Source of the DNA: Candidatus Fermentithermobacillaceae bacterium
GTDB lineage: Bacteria; Bacillota; Sulfobacillia; Fermentithermobacillales; Fermentithermobacillaceae
NCBI GenBank assembly: GCA_012842425.1
Contig: DUSU01000077.1
Coordinates: 1 to 39,382 of the forward strand
Direction of reading: 5' to 3'
Length of the DNA stretch: 39,382 nucleotides
Part shown: in pieces, positions 18,147-25,106 of the stretch
Layout of the letters: each line of letters opens with the position of its first letter
How positions within the stretch are numbered: the first letter of the stretch is position 1
Translations under genes and position numbers: made by a program
The notes under the pieces: generated by a model
Told to the model about the DNA's origin: nothing
The model's input: only the letters and a program-made list of their open reading frames with translations
Database searches by the model: none

Positions 18147-19271
18147 CTAAGAAGGGTCCGAGCCCGGCGCCGGCAGAGGTCCGAGTTCGGTTATGAGCCT
18201 CCTGGTCTCCGGCGGATAGTCGTCCAGGATGAGGTTTACAGTCATCTCCGGCCGCTCGTAGAGGCTTACGTCCGTGGCCCGGTGTATACCCGGCCCGCTG
18301 ACAATCCGGACCACCGGTCTGTGATTGGCCCGCGGGTCTTGTTTTATGACCACTCCGACATAGCCGCCCCAGAGAGACAATATGGTGCCGGTGGGGTAGA
18401 GGGCTATCCTCTTGAACATGGCCTCAACCATGTCTCCGTCAAACAAGATCCCCCGTTTTTCCATGAGGAACGCTTGCACGGCTTCAGGGAGCACCGCCCG
18501 GCGCTGGGGCCTGTCCGCAGTCATGGCCTCATAGACATCTGCCACGGCTACTATGCGGCCAAACTCGGTGATGCTACTTCCTCTTATCTGCCTGGGGTAT
18601 CCCGAACCGTCCAACCTTTCGTGGTGGTCCAATGCCGCATGGGCTACTACGGGTCCCACGTTGTAGCACTGCTGTAGCAGTTCAAAACCCTTCATGGAAT
18701 GGGTTTTCACCAGTTCGTACTCTTCGTCGGTGAGAAGGGTCGGCTTGTTTATTATGTGTTTTGGGATAAGCACCTTGCCCACATCATGAAGAAGCGCGCC
18801 GAGCCCCAGCTCTTTAAGGCGAGGGACAGACCACCCCAGGACTCCCGCGATACACAGGCTGAGTATGCACACGTTTATGCTGTGGGTGTACGTCTCTTCG
18901 TCGAAGGCGCAAAGGGAATAAAGACCGACGGTGGCCTTCGGGTTGTTCCTGAGGTCCGCGACTATGGCGTCGACCGCTTCTCTTACGGGTCTTACGTCGC
19001 CGGGAGAACCGCGTAAGATGTTCTTCATTACCGCATCCATCACTCGTATGGTGGTCTGGCGGGTTTCTTCCTGGATAGACTCGTCGATCTCTATGTCGCC
19101 GGTCAGAGTATCTTCCAGGGCAACCCTTGTATAGCCCCTGCTGCGAAGCAGACTGATGAGTGCGGGGGTAAGCTTCATTCCTCTGGCAAGCATGAGGCGT
19201 CCGCCGTCGCCGTGCACGGGCATGGCCAGGCTTTCGCCGACCAGCTTGTCATGTAGTGCAACTACCCTCAT
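18147..19271 (-). CDS. HD-GYP domain protein (putative c-di-GMP phosphodiesterase)
   Basis: LLHDVGKVLIPKHIINKP and HHERLDGSGYPRQIRGSSITEFGRIVAVADVYEAMTADR; GGAG RBS before ATG. Confidence 0.92.
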   Translation of the reverse strand: MRVVALHDKLVGESLAMPVHGDGGRLMLARGMKLTPALISLLRSRGYTRVALEDTLTGDIEIDESIQEETRQTTIRVMDAVMKNILRGSPGDVRPVREAVDAIVADLRNNPKATVGLYSLCAFDEETYTHSINVCILSLCIAGVLGWSVPRLKELGLGALLHDVGKVLIPKHIINKPTLLTDEEYELVKTHSMKGFELLQQCYNVGPVVAHAALDHHERLDGSGYPRQIRGSSITEFGRIVAVADVYEAMTADRPQRRAVLPEAVQAFLMEKRGILFDGDMVEAMFKRIALYPTGTILSLWGGYVGVVIKQDPRANHRPVVRIVSGPGIHRATDVSLYERPEMTVNLILDDYPPETRRLITELGPLPAPGSDPS

Positions 19272-19420
19272 GTGTTCTCCTCTCTTCTTCCGCGCGAAGA
19301 CCGCAGCGCTCTCTGGTTTATCGGCTGCGATTGCCCAGTACAGTTATCGAAACTCGCAGGTTGCTGTTGAGATGGAGAGCGAAAGGGATTGTAAGCGGCA
19401 GTGTAGTATTAGTTCATGTT

Positions 19421-20641
19421 ATGAGGTTTCAACGAAACGCCAGTTTATATCTACAATCGGTATCCATGAGCGCCCTGGCGAGGGGTGCGTTTGGTGTTAT
19501 CCAGGGCCTTTATATCTTGTCCCTGGGTTTCAGCGAAGCGGTGTTGGGGACCATTCTGTCGGCCCGTATGCTGTCGGCAGCCGCCTTTTCGGTCCCCGCC
19601 GGGATGTTTTCAGACAGGGTGGGGCGCAGGCCGGTCCTCATCACTGCCGGCCTTCTTACCACGGTAGGTTACTTGGGAATGGCAGTCGCCTCTTCGCCGG
19701 CTCTGATGGTGATTTTCTCGTGCATCCTGGGGTGCGCCGAGGCTTGCCAGATGACGTCGGGGGCGCCGCTCCTCGCCGAATCCAGCACGTCCGAAGATAG
19801 AGGGAAGCTTTTCGGCGTTAACTTCTCGCTGTCCATGGGAGTCAACATGGTGGGAAGCCTACTGGGTGGGTTCCTTCCCCAACAGCTCCGGTCGCTGGGT
19901 CTTGTGAAATCATACAGGCTGTCGCTGGCCCTCTTCTCCCTCGTCACTCTCCTCGGTGTTACTCCGACCTTAAAGATGCAGGAGGAGAAGAAGTCAAAGA
20001 TCGGCGCCGGAGAGCTCACGGCTGCGGCGAGGGATGAGATACGTGAGCTGGTCCAGACCGCTTCCAACAGGGCGGTATGGAACCTCCTTTTCTACAACGT
20101 CCTAATCGGGTTTGGCGCAGGTATGGTGGTCCCCTACTTCAACGTGTTCCTCACCAAGAAGCTGGGGATTACTTCGGACCTCGTGGGCCTCATACTGTCT
20201 CTCACAAACGGCGCCACGGCCATCGCGGGGCTCATATCTCCCATCTTGGCGACGAAATACGGCCGGGTGGCCACCGTGGTCGGCACGCAAATGGCCTCGA
20301 TCCCGTTCTTGCTCCTAATCGCCCTGCCGCCCAACGTATACCTGGTCTCATTCGCGCTCTTCATGAGGTCTGCTCTCATGAACATGTCCAACCCGGTAGC
20401 CTCGGGCTTTTCCATGGAGATCGTTGACGCAGAGAAGCGTGGCAAGATGTCCAGCCTCATGCGGATAGCCGACAACGTAACCAGGTCGGCGAGCGCGGCC
20501 GTCGCCGGCTACATCATGGCCAACTGGAGCTACGAAGTGCCTTACTTCTTCACGGCCGTGCTCTACGTACTGGCGAGCCTGATCTACTGGCGCGCGTTCC
20601 GGAGTTGGGACCGGGAGCTACGTGGACAGGCCACACCTTGA
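19421..20641 (+). CDS. Major facilitator superfamily transporter
   Basis: Multiple hydrophobic segments, MFS loop 2-3 motif SDRVGRRPVLI; probable start MRFQRNASLYLQS at 19421 (ORF open from 19256). Confidence 0.85.
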   Translation: MRFQRNASLYLQSVSMSALARGAFGVIQGLYILSLGFSEAVLGTILSARMLSAAAFSVPAGMFSDRVGRRPVLITAGLLTTVGYLGMAVASSPALMVIFSCILGCAEACQMTSGAPLLAESSTSEDRGKLFGVNFSLSMGVNMVGSLLGGFLPQQLRSLGLVKSYRLSLALFSLVTLLGVTPTLKMQEEKKSKIGAGELTAAARDEIRELVQTASNRAVWNLLFYNVLIGFGAGMVVPYFNVFLTKKLGITSDLVGLILSLTNGATAIAGLISPILATKYGRVATVVGTQMASIPFLLLIALPPNVYLVSFALFMRSALMNMSNPVASGFSMEIVDAEKRGKMSSLMRIADNVTRSASAAVAGYIMANWSYEVPYFFTAVLYVLASLIYWRAFRSWDRELRGQATP

Positions 20642-20667
20642 CATTCCTTGGAAGGTCAGGGTATTAT
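20638..20667 (+). promoter_or_regulatory. Sigma-A-like promoter for the riboswitch transcript
   Basis: TTGACA (20638-20643), 18-bp spacer, TATTAT (20662-20667); the -35 overlaps the stop codon of the MFS gene. Confidence 0.6.
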
Positions 20668-20699
20668 ACAGCATACGTTAGCAGTGGGTAGCACGCCTG

Positions 20700-20815
20700 A
20701 TCGCTGAGTCTCCCAGATCGGGAGAGCGGGGGACCCAACTTATTCGGGGCTAATCGCGTAAGCGTAGGGCCAAACCTTTTCGGCCCGAGCCCGTCAGCTA
20801 ACCTCGTAAGCGTGG
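20700..20815 (+). ncRNA. Cyclic di-AMP riboswitch (ydaO-yuaA class)
   Basis: Class-diagnostic conserved strings in order: TCGCTGA...GGAGAGCGGGGGACCCAACT...TCGGGGCTAATC...GTAGGG...CCCGAGCCCGTCAGCTAACCTCGTAAGCGT; terminal helix CGCT/AGCG. Confidence 0.95.
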
Positions 20816-20819
20816 AGAA

Positions 20820-20866
20820 GGAAGACGGCTACATTGCGGCGTCCATTCCGCAACTCCTCGTCTTCC
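20820..20866 (+). promoter_or_regulatory. Two-tier hairpin immediately 3' of the riboswitch aptamer
   Basis: GGAAGACG (20820-20827) pairs with CGTCTTCC (20859-20866); inner TTGCGG (20834-20839) pairs with CCGCAA (20848-20853); no U tract after it. Confidence 0.6.
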
Positions 20867-21051
20867 CCTAAGGCAGTGGCTGCAAGCCATCTTGCGTATC
20901 CGGGATCTTTTGTGATCTCCGGGGTAGAGCACATGAGTTCAACTGGCCTTGCGCCGGTATGGGCGTAGGTTTGTGCCCTATTGTGCCAAAGGCCCGGCGT
21001 GTCTATGCGATTTTACCCCACTGCTCAGGAAACCGTGAGGAGGAGAGGCCC

Positions 21052-22044
21052 ATGCATGTATGCGTCATAACGGCGCCAACCGGTGACTGCCCGCTCAACC
21101 GGTACGATCCCCATGCCGCCCGGCAGACAAAGGAGACGCGGGATGCGGTAGCTGCGAGCCTCCGGGAGCTGGGCCATGAGGTGAGCGTGCTCGAGGCAGG
21201 GCCGTCCCTGCTCTTGGACATCGAGGCTTTGAAGCCGGAGGTACTGTTCAACATGGCCACGGGGTATCGCTCCAAAAAGGACCAGGCGAATATCGCCGCG
21301 CTCCTCGAACTGAGCGGTATTCCTTTCACAGGGGCGACATCCCACGGTCATCTTGTGGGGCTCCACAAGCACCTGGCCAAGATGGTCATGCAGGCAATCG
21401 GGGTAAGGACGCCTCCGTTCAGGGTCGCTTTTGGCGAAGGAGACCTAAACACCGGCCTTACTGAGGGGCTCAGGTTCCCGGTTATCGTAAAACCGGCCGC
21501 CGAAGGCTCAAGCGTGGGCATCACAGCCGACAGCGTGGTGACAAGTAACGCAGATGCTGCCCTGGTGGCATCTAAGGTTTTGAGAGATTTCGGACCCCCG
21601 GTCCTTGTAGAGGAGTTCATCTCAGGGAGGGAGTTCACCGTTGCCCTCCTGGGACATCCGCGTCTCAGGGCACTTCCGCCCGAGGAGATCATCTTCAAAG
21701 AGGGCGACATGTACACCTATGGAGTCAAGGCCCGCGACAACGTAACGGTCAAGTGCCCTGCTGACATCCCCGAAGACCTGGCCAGAGACTTGGAGGATAT
21801 GGCTTCAAGGGCCGCGACGGCCATCGGATGCCGGGATGCCGCGAGAGTAGATATCCGCCTAGACGGCGATGGGAAAGCGTATGTCCTCGAGGTCAACACA
21901 TTACCCGGCATGATGCCCGGCTACAGCGAGTTTCCGCGCATAGCGGCAGAGGTCGGGATCTCCTTCGCGGAGCTCGTGAAGACGCTCATCGAAGGCGCTA
22001 TATACAGGGCTCGGGGCGAAAACGTGCCTCAGGCTTTCATCTAG
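21052..22044 (+). CDS. D-alanine-D-alanine-ligase-like ATP-grasp enzyme, probably not a canonical Ddl
   Basis: ALLELSGIPFTGA, FPVIVKPAAEGSSVGI, VLVEEFISGREFTVALLG, ARVDIRLDGDGKAYVLEVNTLPGMMPGYSEFPRIA; RBS gaggaggagaggcccATG. Confidence 0.88.
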   Translation: MHVCVITAPTGDCPLNRYDPHAARQTKETRDAVAASLRELGHEVSVLEAGPSLLLDIEALKPEVLFNMATGYRSKKDQANIAALLELSGIPFTGATSHGHLVGLHKHLAKMVMQAIGVRTPPFRVAFGEGDLNTGLTEGLRFPVIVKPAAEGSSVGITADSVVTSNADAALVASKVLRDFGPPVLVEEFISGREFTVALLGHPRLRALPPEEIIFKEGDMYTYGVKARDNVTVKCPADIPEDLARDLEDMASRAATAIGCRDAARVDIRLDGDGKAYVLEVNTLPGMMPGYSEFPRIAAEVGISFAELVKTLIEGAIYRARGENVPQAFI

Positions 22045-22119
22045 AGCAGCGCAGCGGATGCTGTGCGAGACCGGATTATCCGGACATCTCACAAAGAAAA
22101 GAGAAAGGAGGCAGTAAGA

Positions 22120-23244
22120 ATGGCGGAGGAACTGCGCACTCACATAGGGCTGGAAAACGGAGATTTTGCTGTCATAGGAGCGGGGAACGGCGGCGTTGCG
22201 ATGGCGGGGTTCTTGGCCCTCAGAGGATACACTGTAAACCTTTGGAATAGGTCAGTGAGGACCATCCAAGACATTGAGTCGTGCGGGGGTATATTCCTCG
22301 AAGGTGAGATTAAGGGAGTAGCCGTTCCCAACAAAGTCACGACCGACATAGAGGAAGCCGTGAAAGGCGTGCCTGTCATCATGGTGACGGTACCTGCATC
22401 TGCCCATGAGACGGTGGCGCGTCTCATGGCGCCTTACCTTAGCGATGGCCAGATCATCGTGCTTAATCCCGGGAGGACAGGTGGCGCTCTGCATTTCCGC
22501 GCCACCCTCCGGAGGGAAGGGTGCACGGCTTCGGTAACCGTGGCTGAAACCAATACCTTTGTATATGCGAGCAGGACTCTGGGGCCCGGGCGCTCCCGGG
22601 TGTTCGGAGTCAAGAAATCAGTGAGTATAGCGGCTCTTCCTGCGGTAAGGACCGTTCAGGTTGTGAGGGCCCTCAAACCTGTGTACCCTCAGTTCTTGCC
22701 GGTTGAGAGCGTGATGGTCACCAGCCTCGACAACATGGGCGCGGTGTTCCATCCCGTTCCGACGCTCCTGAATGCCGCAAGGGTTGAGGCGTCCCTGGCT
22801 TTTCAGCACTACACCGACGGGATATCGCCCTCGGTGGCAGGAGTGCTGGAAGCGCTCGACCGTGAAAGGCTGAGCATCGCGGACGCTTTGGGGGTGCCTG
22901 CAAGGTCGGCCCTTGAATGGCTGCGCGAGAGCTACGGTATTCAGGCGGACAATTTGTACGACGCCATCCAGGCCAACAAGGCTTACCACGGCATTTCGGC
23001 CCCCACTACGCTAAGCTGCCGGTACATCACCGAAGATGTCCCCTTTAGCCTCGTCCCGATGCTTTCCTTGGCCGAGGCTGCGGGAGTCGACACGCCGGTG
23101 ATCCGCGCGGCGGTGAACATGGCGTGCGCCCTTACCGGCGAGGACTACGCGGCCAAAGGCCGTACCGCCGAGAGCATGGGAATAGCGGGCCTCTCCGGGC
23201 AGGAGATCATCGAGCACGTCGTTCAGGAGGTGTATCACGGATGA
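22120..23244 (+). CDS. NAD(P)-dependent octopine/nopaline dehydrogenase family protein
   Basis: FAVIGAGNGGVAMAGFLALRGYTVNLWNR, LNPGRTGGALHFRATL, VAETNTFVYASR, SLDNMGAVFHPVPTLLNAARVE, NKAYHGISAPTTLSCRYITEDVPFSLVPMLSLAEAAGVDTPVIRAAV; RBS GAAAGGAGG upstream of ATG. Confidence 0.92.
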   Translation: MAEELRTHIGLENGDFAVIGAGNGGVAMAGFLALRGYTVNLWNRSVRTIQDIESCGGIFLEGEIKGVAVPNKVTTDIEEAVKGVPVIMVTVPASAHETVARLMAPYLSDGQIIVLNPGRTGGALHFRATLRREGCTASVTVAETNTFVYASRTLGPGRSRVFGVKKSVSIAALPAVRTVQVVRALKPVYPQFLPVESVMVTSLDNMGAVFHPVPTLLNAARVEASLAFQHYTDGISPSVAGVLEALDRERLSIADALGVPARSALEWLRESYGIQADNLYDAIQANKAYHGISAPTTLSCRYITEDVPFSLVPMLSLAEAAGVDTPVIRAAVNMACALTGEDYAAKGRTAESMGIAGLSGQEIIEHVVQEVYHG

Positions 23245-24998
23245 CTGCAAGCACCCGCATATCGAACGGTAACGGACCTGGACCCAGGCGGGGGAAGAGG
23301 ATACTGGGCGCGTCAATGGGCGACTGCGTCCACGTGGCAGGAGTGCTTAACTTCCTGAGGCTAGCCGAGAGCCAGGGCTATTCAACAGAGTTCGCCGGGG
23401 CTGCCGTGTCGCCTGAGGATCTGGCGGCTCTTGCAAAGGCGAAGAAGTCGGACTACCTCGCTGTAGGATATCGCCTGGACCCTCAGGCTGCCAGGAACCT
23501 GATAAGAAGGCTGAAGGCCGCCCTAGAAAAGAAAGACTGCGCGCCGCGCCTACTCTTTGGCGGCACCCCGCCCGTGGCGGAGGTCGCGAGGGAAGAGGGT
23601 GGCTTCGACGCTGTTTTCTCCGGCAGAGAAGATATCGACGAGATCATCGCGTACCTCAGGGGAAAGCCCGTCCTGAAAGACGTCCCAAAATACCCCGATA
23701 CCCTCGGCGAAAGGATCGAGTGGAAAGAGCCTTATCCCATCCTAAGGCACCACTTCGGTCTTCCGTCTGTGGATGAGACCGCCGAAGGCATAAAGAAGAT
23801 CGCCGGATCCGGCGTCCTGGACGTCATTTCCCTGGGTCCGGACCAGAACGCCCAGGAAAGGTTCTTCCATCCGGAGGAGATGGACCACGACCAGGACGGA
23901 GCCGGCGGGACGGCGATACGGTCAAGGGAGGACTTTGAAAAGCTTTACGCGGCCTCGCGGACGGGCAACCAACCGCTCATGCGTTGTTACAGCGGGACGC
24001 GCGACGTCCTTCGCTTTGCCGCTCTCCTCGCCGAGACCATAAAGAACGCGTGGGCAGCCGTTCCTCTTACCTGGTACAACGTGCTGGACGGCCGCGGACC
24101 CAGGCCCGTCGTGCAGTCTATTGCCGAAAGCCAAGAAGTCATGGCATGGCACGCGGTAAGAGGGATCCCCGTCGAGGTCAACGAGTCTCACCACTGGAGT
24201 CTGAGAGACGCGCCCGATGTGGTGGCCGTGGCAGCCGCGTACCTGGCGGCGTACAACGCGAAGAAGGCCGGGGTCAAGGAGTACGTTGCCCAGTTCATGT
24301 TCAACACTCCTCCGGGCACGAGCCCTGCTATGGACCTCGGCAAGATGCTCGCCAAGATCAAGATGATTGAGTCCCTTGCGGGAGACGACTTCCGGGTATA
24401 CCGGCAGGTAAGGGCAGGACTGGCCAGTTTCCCGACGGACCTTGACCAAGCAAAGGGCCACCTGGCTCTCTCCACGACGGTTTCCATGGCAGTAAGGCCG
24501 CACATTGTCCATGTGGTTGGTTACTGTGAGGCCGACCATCTGGCCGGCCCTGAGGAAGTAATCGAGAGCTGCCGGATAGCCAGGGGCGCCATCCGCTCCT
24601 GCTTGCAGGGAATGCCCGATATGACCCGGGATGACTCCGTAATCGCAAGGCGCGACCGGTTGGTCCGGGATGCGGGGGTCCTCCTAGACGGGATAGCGGA
24701 GATACACCGCCTTCTCAGGGAAGGCGCCATCCCCGTCGACAAGAGGGCCGGGTCTTTCGAGATCGGGCCCGACCCCTTCACCGATCCGGTTACCTTGGCA
24801 ACCGCTATCGGGCTGGGCGTATTGGACGCACCTCACCTCAAGGGCAATCCCAGCGCGTATGGGGAGAGCTTGACTGCCATGGTGGACGGTGCTTGCGTGG
24901 CGATTGACCCCTCGACGCGGAAACCCATCCCCGAAGAACTGAGGATCGAGAGGATACTCGACATGTTCAGTAAGAAGCGGGTGGCGGCTGCTAAGTAA
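23241..24998 (+). CDS. Cobalamin (B12)-binding-domain protein fused to a large C-terminal domain reminiscent of B12-dependent mutase barrels
   Basis: N-terminal GKRILGASMGDCVHVAGVLNFLRLAESQGYSTEFAGAAVSPEDL...LLFGGTPPVAEVAREEGGFDAVFSGREDIDEII resembles B12-binding folds; C-terminal ~420 aa (TWYNVLDGRGPRPVVQSIAESQEVMAWHAVRGIPVEVNESHHW...). ATGA overlap with the upstream gene. Confidence 0.7.
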   Translation: MTASTRISNGNGPGPRRGKRILGASMGDCVHVAGVLNFLRLAESQGYSTEFAGAAVSPEDLAALAKAKKSDYLAVGYRLDPQAARNLIRRLKAALEKKDCAPRLLFGGTPPVAEVAREEGGFDAVFSGREDIDEIIAYLRGKPVLKDVPKYPDTLGERIEWKEPYPILRHHFGLPSVDETAEGIKKIAGSGVLDVISLGPDQNAQERFFHPEEMDHDQDGAGGTAIRSREDFEKLYAASRTGNQPLMRCYSGTRDVLRFAALLAETIKNAWAAVPLTWYNVLDGRGPRPVVQSIAESQEVMAWHAVRGIPVEVNESHHWSLRDAPDVVAVAAAYLAAYNAKKAGVKEYVAQFMFNTPPGTSPAMDLGKMLAKIKMIESLAGDDFRVYRQVRAGLASFPTDLDQAKGHLALSTTVSMAVRPHIVHVVGYCEADHLAGPEEVIESCRIARGAIRSCLQGMPDMTRDDSVIARRDRLVRDAGVLLDGIAEIHRLLREGAIPVDKRAGSFEIGPDPFTDPVTLATAIGLGVLDAPHLKGNPSAYGESLTAMVDGACVAIDPSTRKPIPEELRIERILDMFSKKRVAAAK

Positions 24999-25072: not shown

Positions 25073-25106
25073 AGGACCGGCGGCTCAGCGCAGAGCTGCC
25101 GGTCCT
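25073..25106. terminator. Hairpin between converging genes (possible bidirectional terminator)
   Basis: AGGACCGGC-g-GCTC-agcgca-GAGC-t-GCCGGTCCT; reverse-strand tail is TCTCTTAG, forward tail is not U-rich. Confidence 0.55.

Follow-up and report, generated by a model that had tools for sequence, protein, structure and literature searches.

A c-di-AMP riboswitch-associated operon encoding an opine dehydrogenase and a predicted B12-dependent mutase in Bacillota

The operon and its leader

A stretch of 39,382 nucleotides (positions 1 to 39,382 of contig DUSU01000077.1, assembly GCA_012842425.1) from a Candidatus Fermentithermobacillaceae bacterium (phylum Bacillota), called the window in the following, carries three closely spaced genes on the forward strand, for an ATP-grasp ligase, an enzyme of the opine dehydrogenase (ODH) family and a B12-binding protein, behind a promoter and a riboswitch aptamer for cyclic di-adenosine monophosphate (c-di-AMP; Table 1). 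The aptamer matches RF00379 over its full length (model positions 1-134), scoring 84.9 bits (gathering score 38; E 1.5e-18), and is the sole Rfam match within the window; the ODH and B12 genes overlap by the four bases ATGA (23241-23244). An initial annotation, made from the letters alone, had named the promoter, the ydaO-class aptamer, the tight spacing of three same-strand genes and the three enzyme classes, all of which are borne out. It had also ended the operon at a hairpin. An inverted repeat does follow the B12 gene, in a region that folds with a z-score of -5.2, and is a possible transcript end; a T-run is lacking, and since the genes on its two sides converge, the repeat may serve either of them.

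Table 1. Features of the operon and its leader, in window coordinates.
Feature	Position	Strand	Remarks
Sigma-70-type promoter, TTGACA-18-TATTAT	20638..20667	+	11/12 consensus positions matched; shares bases with the stop codon of the MFS gene before it
c-di-AMP riboswitch aptamer RF00379 (ydaO/yuaA leader)	20692..20826	+	covariance-model match
Leader hairpin GGAAGACG...CGTCTTCC, directly 3' of the aptamer	20820..20866	+	predicted fold; candidate expression platform without U-run
ATP-grasp ligase, D-Ala-D-Ala-ligase-like, 330 aa	21052..22044	+	PF07478, 147 bits (cut-off 24); optional amide-forming partner
Opine dehydrogenase family enzyme, 374 aa	22120..23244	+	PF02317, 159 bits; core gene
Single-chain adenosylcobalamin mutase-like protein, 585 aa	23241..24998	+	PF02310, 33 bits; core gene
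Inverted repeat 3' of the operon, between convergent genes	25073..25106	.	17-nt arms, 88% complementary

Promoter, aptamer and the first hairpin 3' of the aptamer are kept in three related Fermentithermobacillaceae genomes (L001, L002, L003), where the -35 element is identical and the -10 region alignable; both arms of the hairpin are identical across the four genomes, and its predicted stability shows no gain over shuffled sequence (z -0.79). In 22 of 28 relatives' leaders a simple scan, run without a shuffled control, finds a hairpin with a T-run terminator 3' of the aptamer, which would be the usual OFF design. Since regulated termination is the OFF-switch mode of this riboswitch class, an RNA that ends before 21052 would not speak against the cassette. 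In one locus (L066) the ODH and B12 genes are preceded by a tandem pair of RF00379 aptamers (G045:C37:42548-42674 and 42814-42937), a possible means to a sharper c-di-AMP response.

Conservation of the gene pair and its riboswitch

Homologues of the B12 protein, at least about 48% identical over most of the length, occur in about 80 of the 399 genomes sampled from the phylum; the window's genome has one copy of the gene. ODH is present in 63 of 67 loci, nearly always immediately adjacent and often with the same ATGA overlap. The four others are L048, which lies at a contig end and shows a partial ODH, and L043, L044 and L076, which have none; in the genomes of these three (G354, G275 and G311) an ODH is found elsewhere, each time as the first gene behind an RF00379 aptamer of its own. 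The position of these detached enzymes strongly suggests a link between ODH, B12 protein and c-di-AMP. ODH and B12 protein form the conserved core, with the ATP-grasp ligase as an optional third gene, so that the three-gene set envisaged initially is one variant of the arrangement.

The 80 genomes with a B12 gene were searched for RF00379, and 39 of the 114 sites used lie less than 6 kb upstream of the B12 gene or pair on the same strand. About 0.13 would be expected by chance, if genomes average 2.6 Mb and sites are placed uniformly; the position of the riboswitch is therefore beyond chance. These sites fall into 37 of the 80 genomes (one of them, G374, scoring below the gathering score) and 15 of 37 families, which supports the c-di-AMP control proposed in the initial annotation. 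Of the loci that lack RF00379, 14 were scanned for other riboswitches, and none was recognised immediately before the pair. The remaining RF00379 targets of the window's genome are a cell-wall hydrolase and an oligopeptide-binding protein; those of its relatives include NlpC/P60 proteins, lytic transglycosylase-like proteins, Opp-type peptide uptake and, recognised by eye, apparent K+ transporters. Such targets are typical of c-di-AMP regulons, and a diadenylate cyclase is encoded in the window's genome.

The opine dehydrogenase

The nearest solved relative of the ODH is the Arthrobacter N-(1-D-carboxyethyl)-L-norvaline dehydrogenase (CENDH, 1BG6), which is homologous over the full length (303 bits as a single sequence, 409 bits as a profile); the alignment with 1BG6 and octopine dehydrogenase covers the Rossmann N-terminus and the PF02317 domain. 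The catalytic dyad, His211 and Asp306, is present in all 38 family members, as is Arg301. Equally invariant (38/38) are R119 and G207, which fall on positions 111 and 198 of ArODH, occupied there by Ala and Asn. Hot-spring mODHs with Arg and Gly at these positions prefer L-Asp and L-Glu, with pyruvate as the partner, and a double swap of the two residues switched the preference (PMC10787698). We infer from these residues that the cassette enzyme prefers acidic L-amino acids with pyruvate, and the hot-spring mODHs may belong to its family. The amino-acid-derived product suggested in the initial annotation is a reasonable proposal.

The B12 protein

The B12 protein, for which no Pfam or NCBIfam model was found that names it as a whole, consists of an N-terminal B12-binding Rossmann domain followed by a barrel like that of the epsilon subunit of glutamate mutase (GlmE). 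An AlphaFold2 model built from 51 sequences (pLDDT 91.8) has glutamate mutase epsilon as its best fold match in the PDB (E 3.8e-17, TM-score 0.64-0.65 of the target), with ornithine and lysine aminomutases (E about 1e-10) and methylmalonyl-CoA mutase ranking lower. The same relationship is seen between profiles, where the family matches GlmE with an E-value of 3.1e-5 in hhalign, or 1.8e-5 with the barrel alone; of the 51 members, 50 have a match to the B12-binding domain and 25 one to PF06368 (Met_asp_mut_E). The axial His and the subsequent Gly of the DxHxxG motif are present in every member (51/51). Where the motif has Asp, 45 members carry Cys and five keep the Asp; this Cys, found in the window's protein within the motif CxHxxG (residues 29-34, positions 23325-23342), may alter the His-Asp relay to the cobalt. 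An invariant glutamate, E430 (51/51), is aligned to Glu330 of GlmE, the Ado-activating residue, which is in contact with the adenosyl group (PMC4413051).

Two known enzyme types were considered as identities for the protein. A B12 aminomutase dependent on pyridoxal phosphate (PLP), of the ornithine or lysine type (OAM/KAM), is ruled out, as the PLP-binding Lys 11 residues past the axial His is absent and replaced by Ala in 50 of the 51 members; plain glutamate mutase was not adopted, as its arginine claw is not conserved. We call the protein a predicted adenosylcobalamin (AdoCbl) carbon-skeleton mutase, akin to glutamate mutase yet distinct from it; the 'B12-binding/mutase-like' label of the initial annotation was right in class and can be made more precise, as a barrel of the glutamate mutase type to which a B12 domain is fused. 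Six loci (L065, L068, L078, L081, L083, L085) have a gene for a reactivase of the GlmL type (MutL, PF13941) near the B12 gene. The window's genome encodes a corrinoid adenosyltransferase of the CobA type and none of the PduO type. A longer variant of the B12 protein (1213-1233 aa) adjoins a divergent ODH in L094 and L095; in L094 it immediately follows genes for an ABC transporter of the Opp type, which is also found under other RF00379 sites.

The amide-forming partners

ATP-grasp ligases and asparagine-synthetase-like (AsnB-like) enzymes both convert a carboxylate to an amide using ATP, and both recur beside the core pair. An ATP-grasp gene is found there in the window's family and several others, at times divergently oriented; an AsnB-like gene lies directly downstream of the pair in eight loci (L051, L063, L067, L069, L070, L076, L088, L090) and upstream of it, behind a riboswitch of its own, in L103. 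Elsewhere the partners stand apart: a more distant ATP-grasp relative is alone behind RF00379 in G116, G150 and G227, an AsnB-like gene is alone behind RF00379 in G037, and G342 has both enzyme sets under separate switches. In no examined locus do the two types occur together beside the pair, and among 75 genomes strong matches were found to the AsnB type in 13, to the ATP-grasp type in 25 and to both in none (thresholds being set by eye and phylogeny left uncontrolled). These sequence counts are suggestive only, and would fit two mutually exchangeable partners.

The ligase of the window is related to D-alanine-D-alanine ligase (Ddl) through the shared ATP-grasp core. An ordinary Ddl identity is ruled out, as its scores against the curated Ddl models remain below the cut-offs (161 against 245.65 for TIGR01205, 187 against 243 for NF002378) and a canonical Ddl is encoded elsewhere in the genome. 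The same genome holds a third Ddl-like ATP-grasp paralogue (G000:C113:23820-24749), 39% identical to the cassette ligase.

A proposed c-di-AMP-repressed osmolyte pathway

The explanation that we favour, and put forward tentatively, is that the operon is repressed by c-di-AMP and makes a compatible solute by means of an AdoCbl mutase, an ODH and amide formation. With adequate K+ and turgor, c-di-AMP would be high, the leader aptamer bound and expression off; under hyperosmotic conditions or at low K+, c-di-AMP would drop and the enzymes would be produced. The B12 protein would act as an AdoCbl-dependent carbon-skeleton mutase, a relative of glutamate mutase with a changed substrate pocket; the ODH would join an acidic L-amino acid (Asp, Glu, or 3-methylaspartate as an Asp analogue) to pyruvate, yielding an N-(1-carboxyethyl) amino acid, that is, an opine; and the ATP-grasp ligase here, or the AsnB-like enzyme in other families, would convert a carboxylate to an amide and so lower the net charge, the end product building up as the solute. 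The operon, its association with the riboswitch, the enzyme classes and the catalytic residues are computed from the genomes themselves; the OFF direction at this locus, the order of steps, the substrates, the product and its role as an osmolyte are the parts that we infer. A precedent is the tandem riboswitch for Na+ and c-di-AMP that shuts off a lysine 2,3-aminomutase gene for an osmolyte precursor (PMC9337991).

Several observations weigh against this proposal. The window's own leader has no canonical T-run terminator 3' of the aptamer, 43 of the 80 genomes with a B12 gene have no RF00379 near it, and an amide-forming enzyme adjoins the pair in a minority of loci only. The AsnB-like members of L069, L070 and G037 lack the glutamine-hydrolysing Cys; the N-termini of the Cys-less partners read MSGIAG (L069), MMGMAA (L070), MYRIAG (L148, of G037) and MSRIVA (L105, of G342), and by analogy with relatives of beta-lactam synthetase these enzymes may use ammonia or another amine. 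Furthermore, AsnB and Ddl-like enzymes fit cell-wall chemistry as well. Finally, the arginine claw of glutamate mutase, formed by R66, R100 and R149 (PMC9545868), aligns with H171, Q205 and Y250 of the B12 protein, in the half of the alignment (the N-terminal one) that is less certain; R169 and R248, each two positions off a claw-aligned residue, are invariant in the family, and in the same profile alignment, with the same reservation for its N-terminal half, GlmE Glu171 has no clear counterpart. Because the claw is lost, glutamate itself may not be the substrate of the mutase.

The enzymes of the proposed osmolyte pathway could act in either of two orders. With the mutase first, for example from glutamate to a 3-methylaspartate-like product, this Asp analogue would fit the ODH as well as an AsnB-like enzyme; with the ODH first, the opine would be the substrate of the mutase, which would fit the loss of the claw and of the amine-binding Glu. 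Taken to its conclusion, the second order would have the B12 enzyme rearrange the opine itself, turning N-(1-carboxyethyl)-L-Asp or -L-Glu within a remodelled, arginine-rich pocket into a new backbone, which is then capped by an amide. We regard this specific version as doubtful; if true, the B12 reaction would be new, and so would a class of compatible solutes under c-di-AMP control in dozens of Bacillota families.

Alternative explanations

The pair could serve cell-wall modification, making an unusual amino acid for peptidoglycan precursors, which the Ddl-like ligase joins and the AsnB-like enzyme amidates, under c-di-AMP control as for other wall genes. The presence of these two partners would suit this explanation, as would the wall hydrolases among other RF00379 targets of the same genomes; some AsnB homologues amidate diaminopimelate in peptidoglycan. 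However, no recurrent wall-synthesis cluster appears beside the pair among the clustered neighbours, the canonical Ddl sits elsewhere in the genome, and the core of ODH and mutase suits soluble amino-acid chemistry, so that we consider a role in the wall unlikely.

A role in energy and redox metabolism seems to us decidedly improbable. Here mutase and ODH would take part in amino-acid fermentation, the ODH serving as a sink for NAD(P)H or, in reverse, releasing amino acid and pyruvate from an opine. The fermentation of glutamate and of ornithine does proceed through B12 mutases followed by other enzymes, and ODH reactions are reversible. The class of the host is fermentative (PMC10215811). Yet c-di-AMP control in 15 families and amide-forming partners are ill-suited to catabolism, and no recurrent catabolic gene set is found at the loci, whose neighbours are annotated only in part. 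A pyrrolysine-like route, which likewise would combine a mutase, an ATP-grasp enzyme and a dehydrogenase, is an analogy that the c-di-AMP link and the replacement by AsnB argue against. Least probable by far is a secreted specialised metabolite or metallophore of the kind made by opine-type dehydrogenases in the staphylopine and pseudopaline pathways, an idea of the initial annotation to which the ODH family membership and a major facilitator superfamily (MFS) transporter gene upstream in the closest relatives would lend themselves, but which the neighbourhoods do not support, as other families do not retain that gene next to the pair, no metal-transport gene recurs among the neighbours, and the ODH is of the CENDH type with determinants for acidic substrates.

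This MFS gene (19256-20638), directly upstream of the operon and kept in L001-L003, possibly encodes an exporter; in L004 a distant MFS gene lies downstream. The protein encoded near the cassette at 18147-19271, on the reverse strand, reads as an HD-GYP phosphodiesterase (recognised by eye).

Relation to known systems

c-di-AMP is a central osmotic signal of Gram-positive bacteria, and its osmolyte targets known so far are mostly transporters. With 39 of 114 sites, the operon is among the most recurrent targets of c-di-AMP riboswitches in the sampled carrier genomes. If the osmolyte pathway is true, the compatible solutes would gain one of opine type that depends on B12; if it is wrong, the operon would still be a new c-di-AMP output.

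The window almost certainly holds a member of a B12 family predicted by Zhang et al. (2009) in 11 genomes, with an N-terminal B12-binding domain and a gene next to that of a pfam02317 octopine/nopaline dehydrogenase; several of the organisms also had Ddl and asparagine synthase genes close by (PMC2667541). In all these features the two agree; they differ in extent, as about 80 of the 399 genomes sampled here from the phylum carry the gene. The section of that paper on the family assigns it no function, mutase activity or riboswitch. The initial annotation did not recognise the combination as a described pathway; the gene set itself had, however, been predicted. We found no published link between c-di-AMP and an opine dehydrogenase or this B12 family in a search outside which lay the ydaO gene lists of Nelson 2013 and Block 2010, where an earlier notice is possible. 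What is new here is the connection to c-di-AMP, the assignment as a mutase, the predicted class of substrate and the interchangeable amide-forming partner; together these give a family without function since 2009 a physiological setting, with the ODH narrowing the substrate.

With glutamate mutase (GlmE/GlmS; PDB 1CB7, 6H9E) the B12 protein shares the barrel fold, the C-terminal region, the base-off B12 His, the Ado-activating Glu and, at some loci, the MutL reactivase as a neighbour; it differs in being a single chain with the B12 domain at the N-terminus, in lacking claw and Glu171, and, in most members, in having CxHxxG for DxHxxG. D-Ornithine 4,5- and lysine 5,6-aminomutases likewise combine a B12 Rossmann domain with a barrel, but have the PLP-binding lysine (Lys629 of OAM) in place of which the family has Ala. 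The ODH resembles Arthrobacter CENDH and the hot-spring mODHs in full-length homology, His-Asp dyad and a key Trp, and the acid-preferring mODHs in Arg at 111 and Gly at 198 (PMC10787698). The ligase has the ATP-grasp core (PF07478) of Ddl, but falls below the NCBIfam cut-offs for Ddl in a genome with a separate canonical enzyme. A regulatory parallel is the system for N-epsilon-acetyl-beta-lysine, where a c-di-AMP aptamer also lies upstream of a radical mutase for an osmolyte precursor; that system employs a radical S-adenosylmethionine/PLP enzyme and an acetyltransferase, whereas the cassette would employ an AdoCbl mutase, an ODH and amide formation (PMC9337991).

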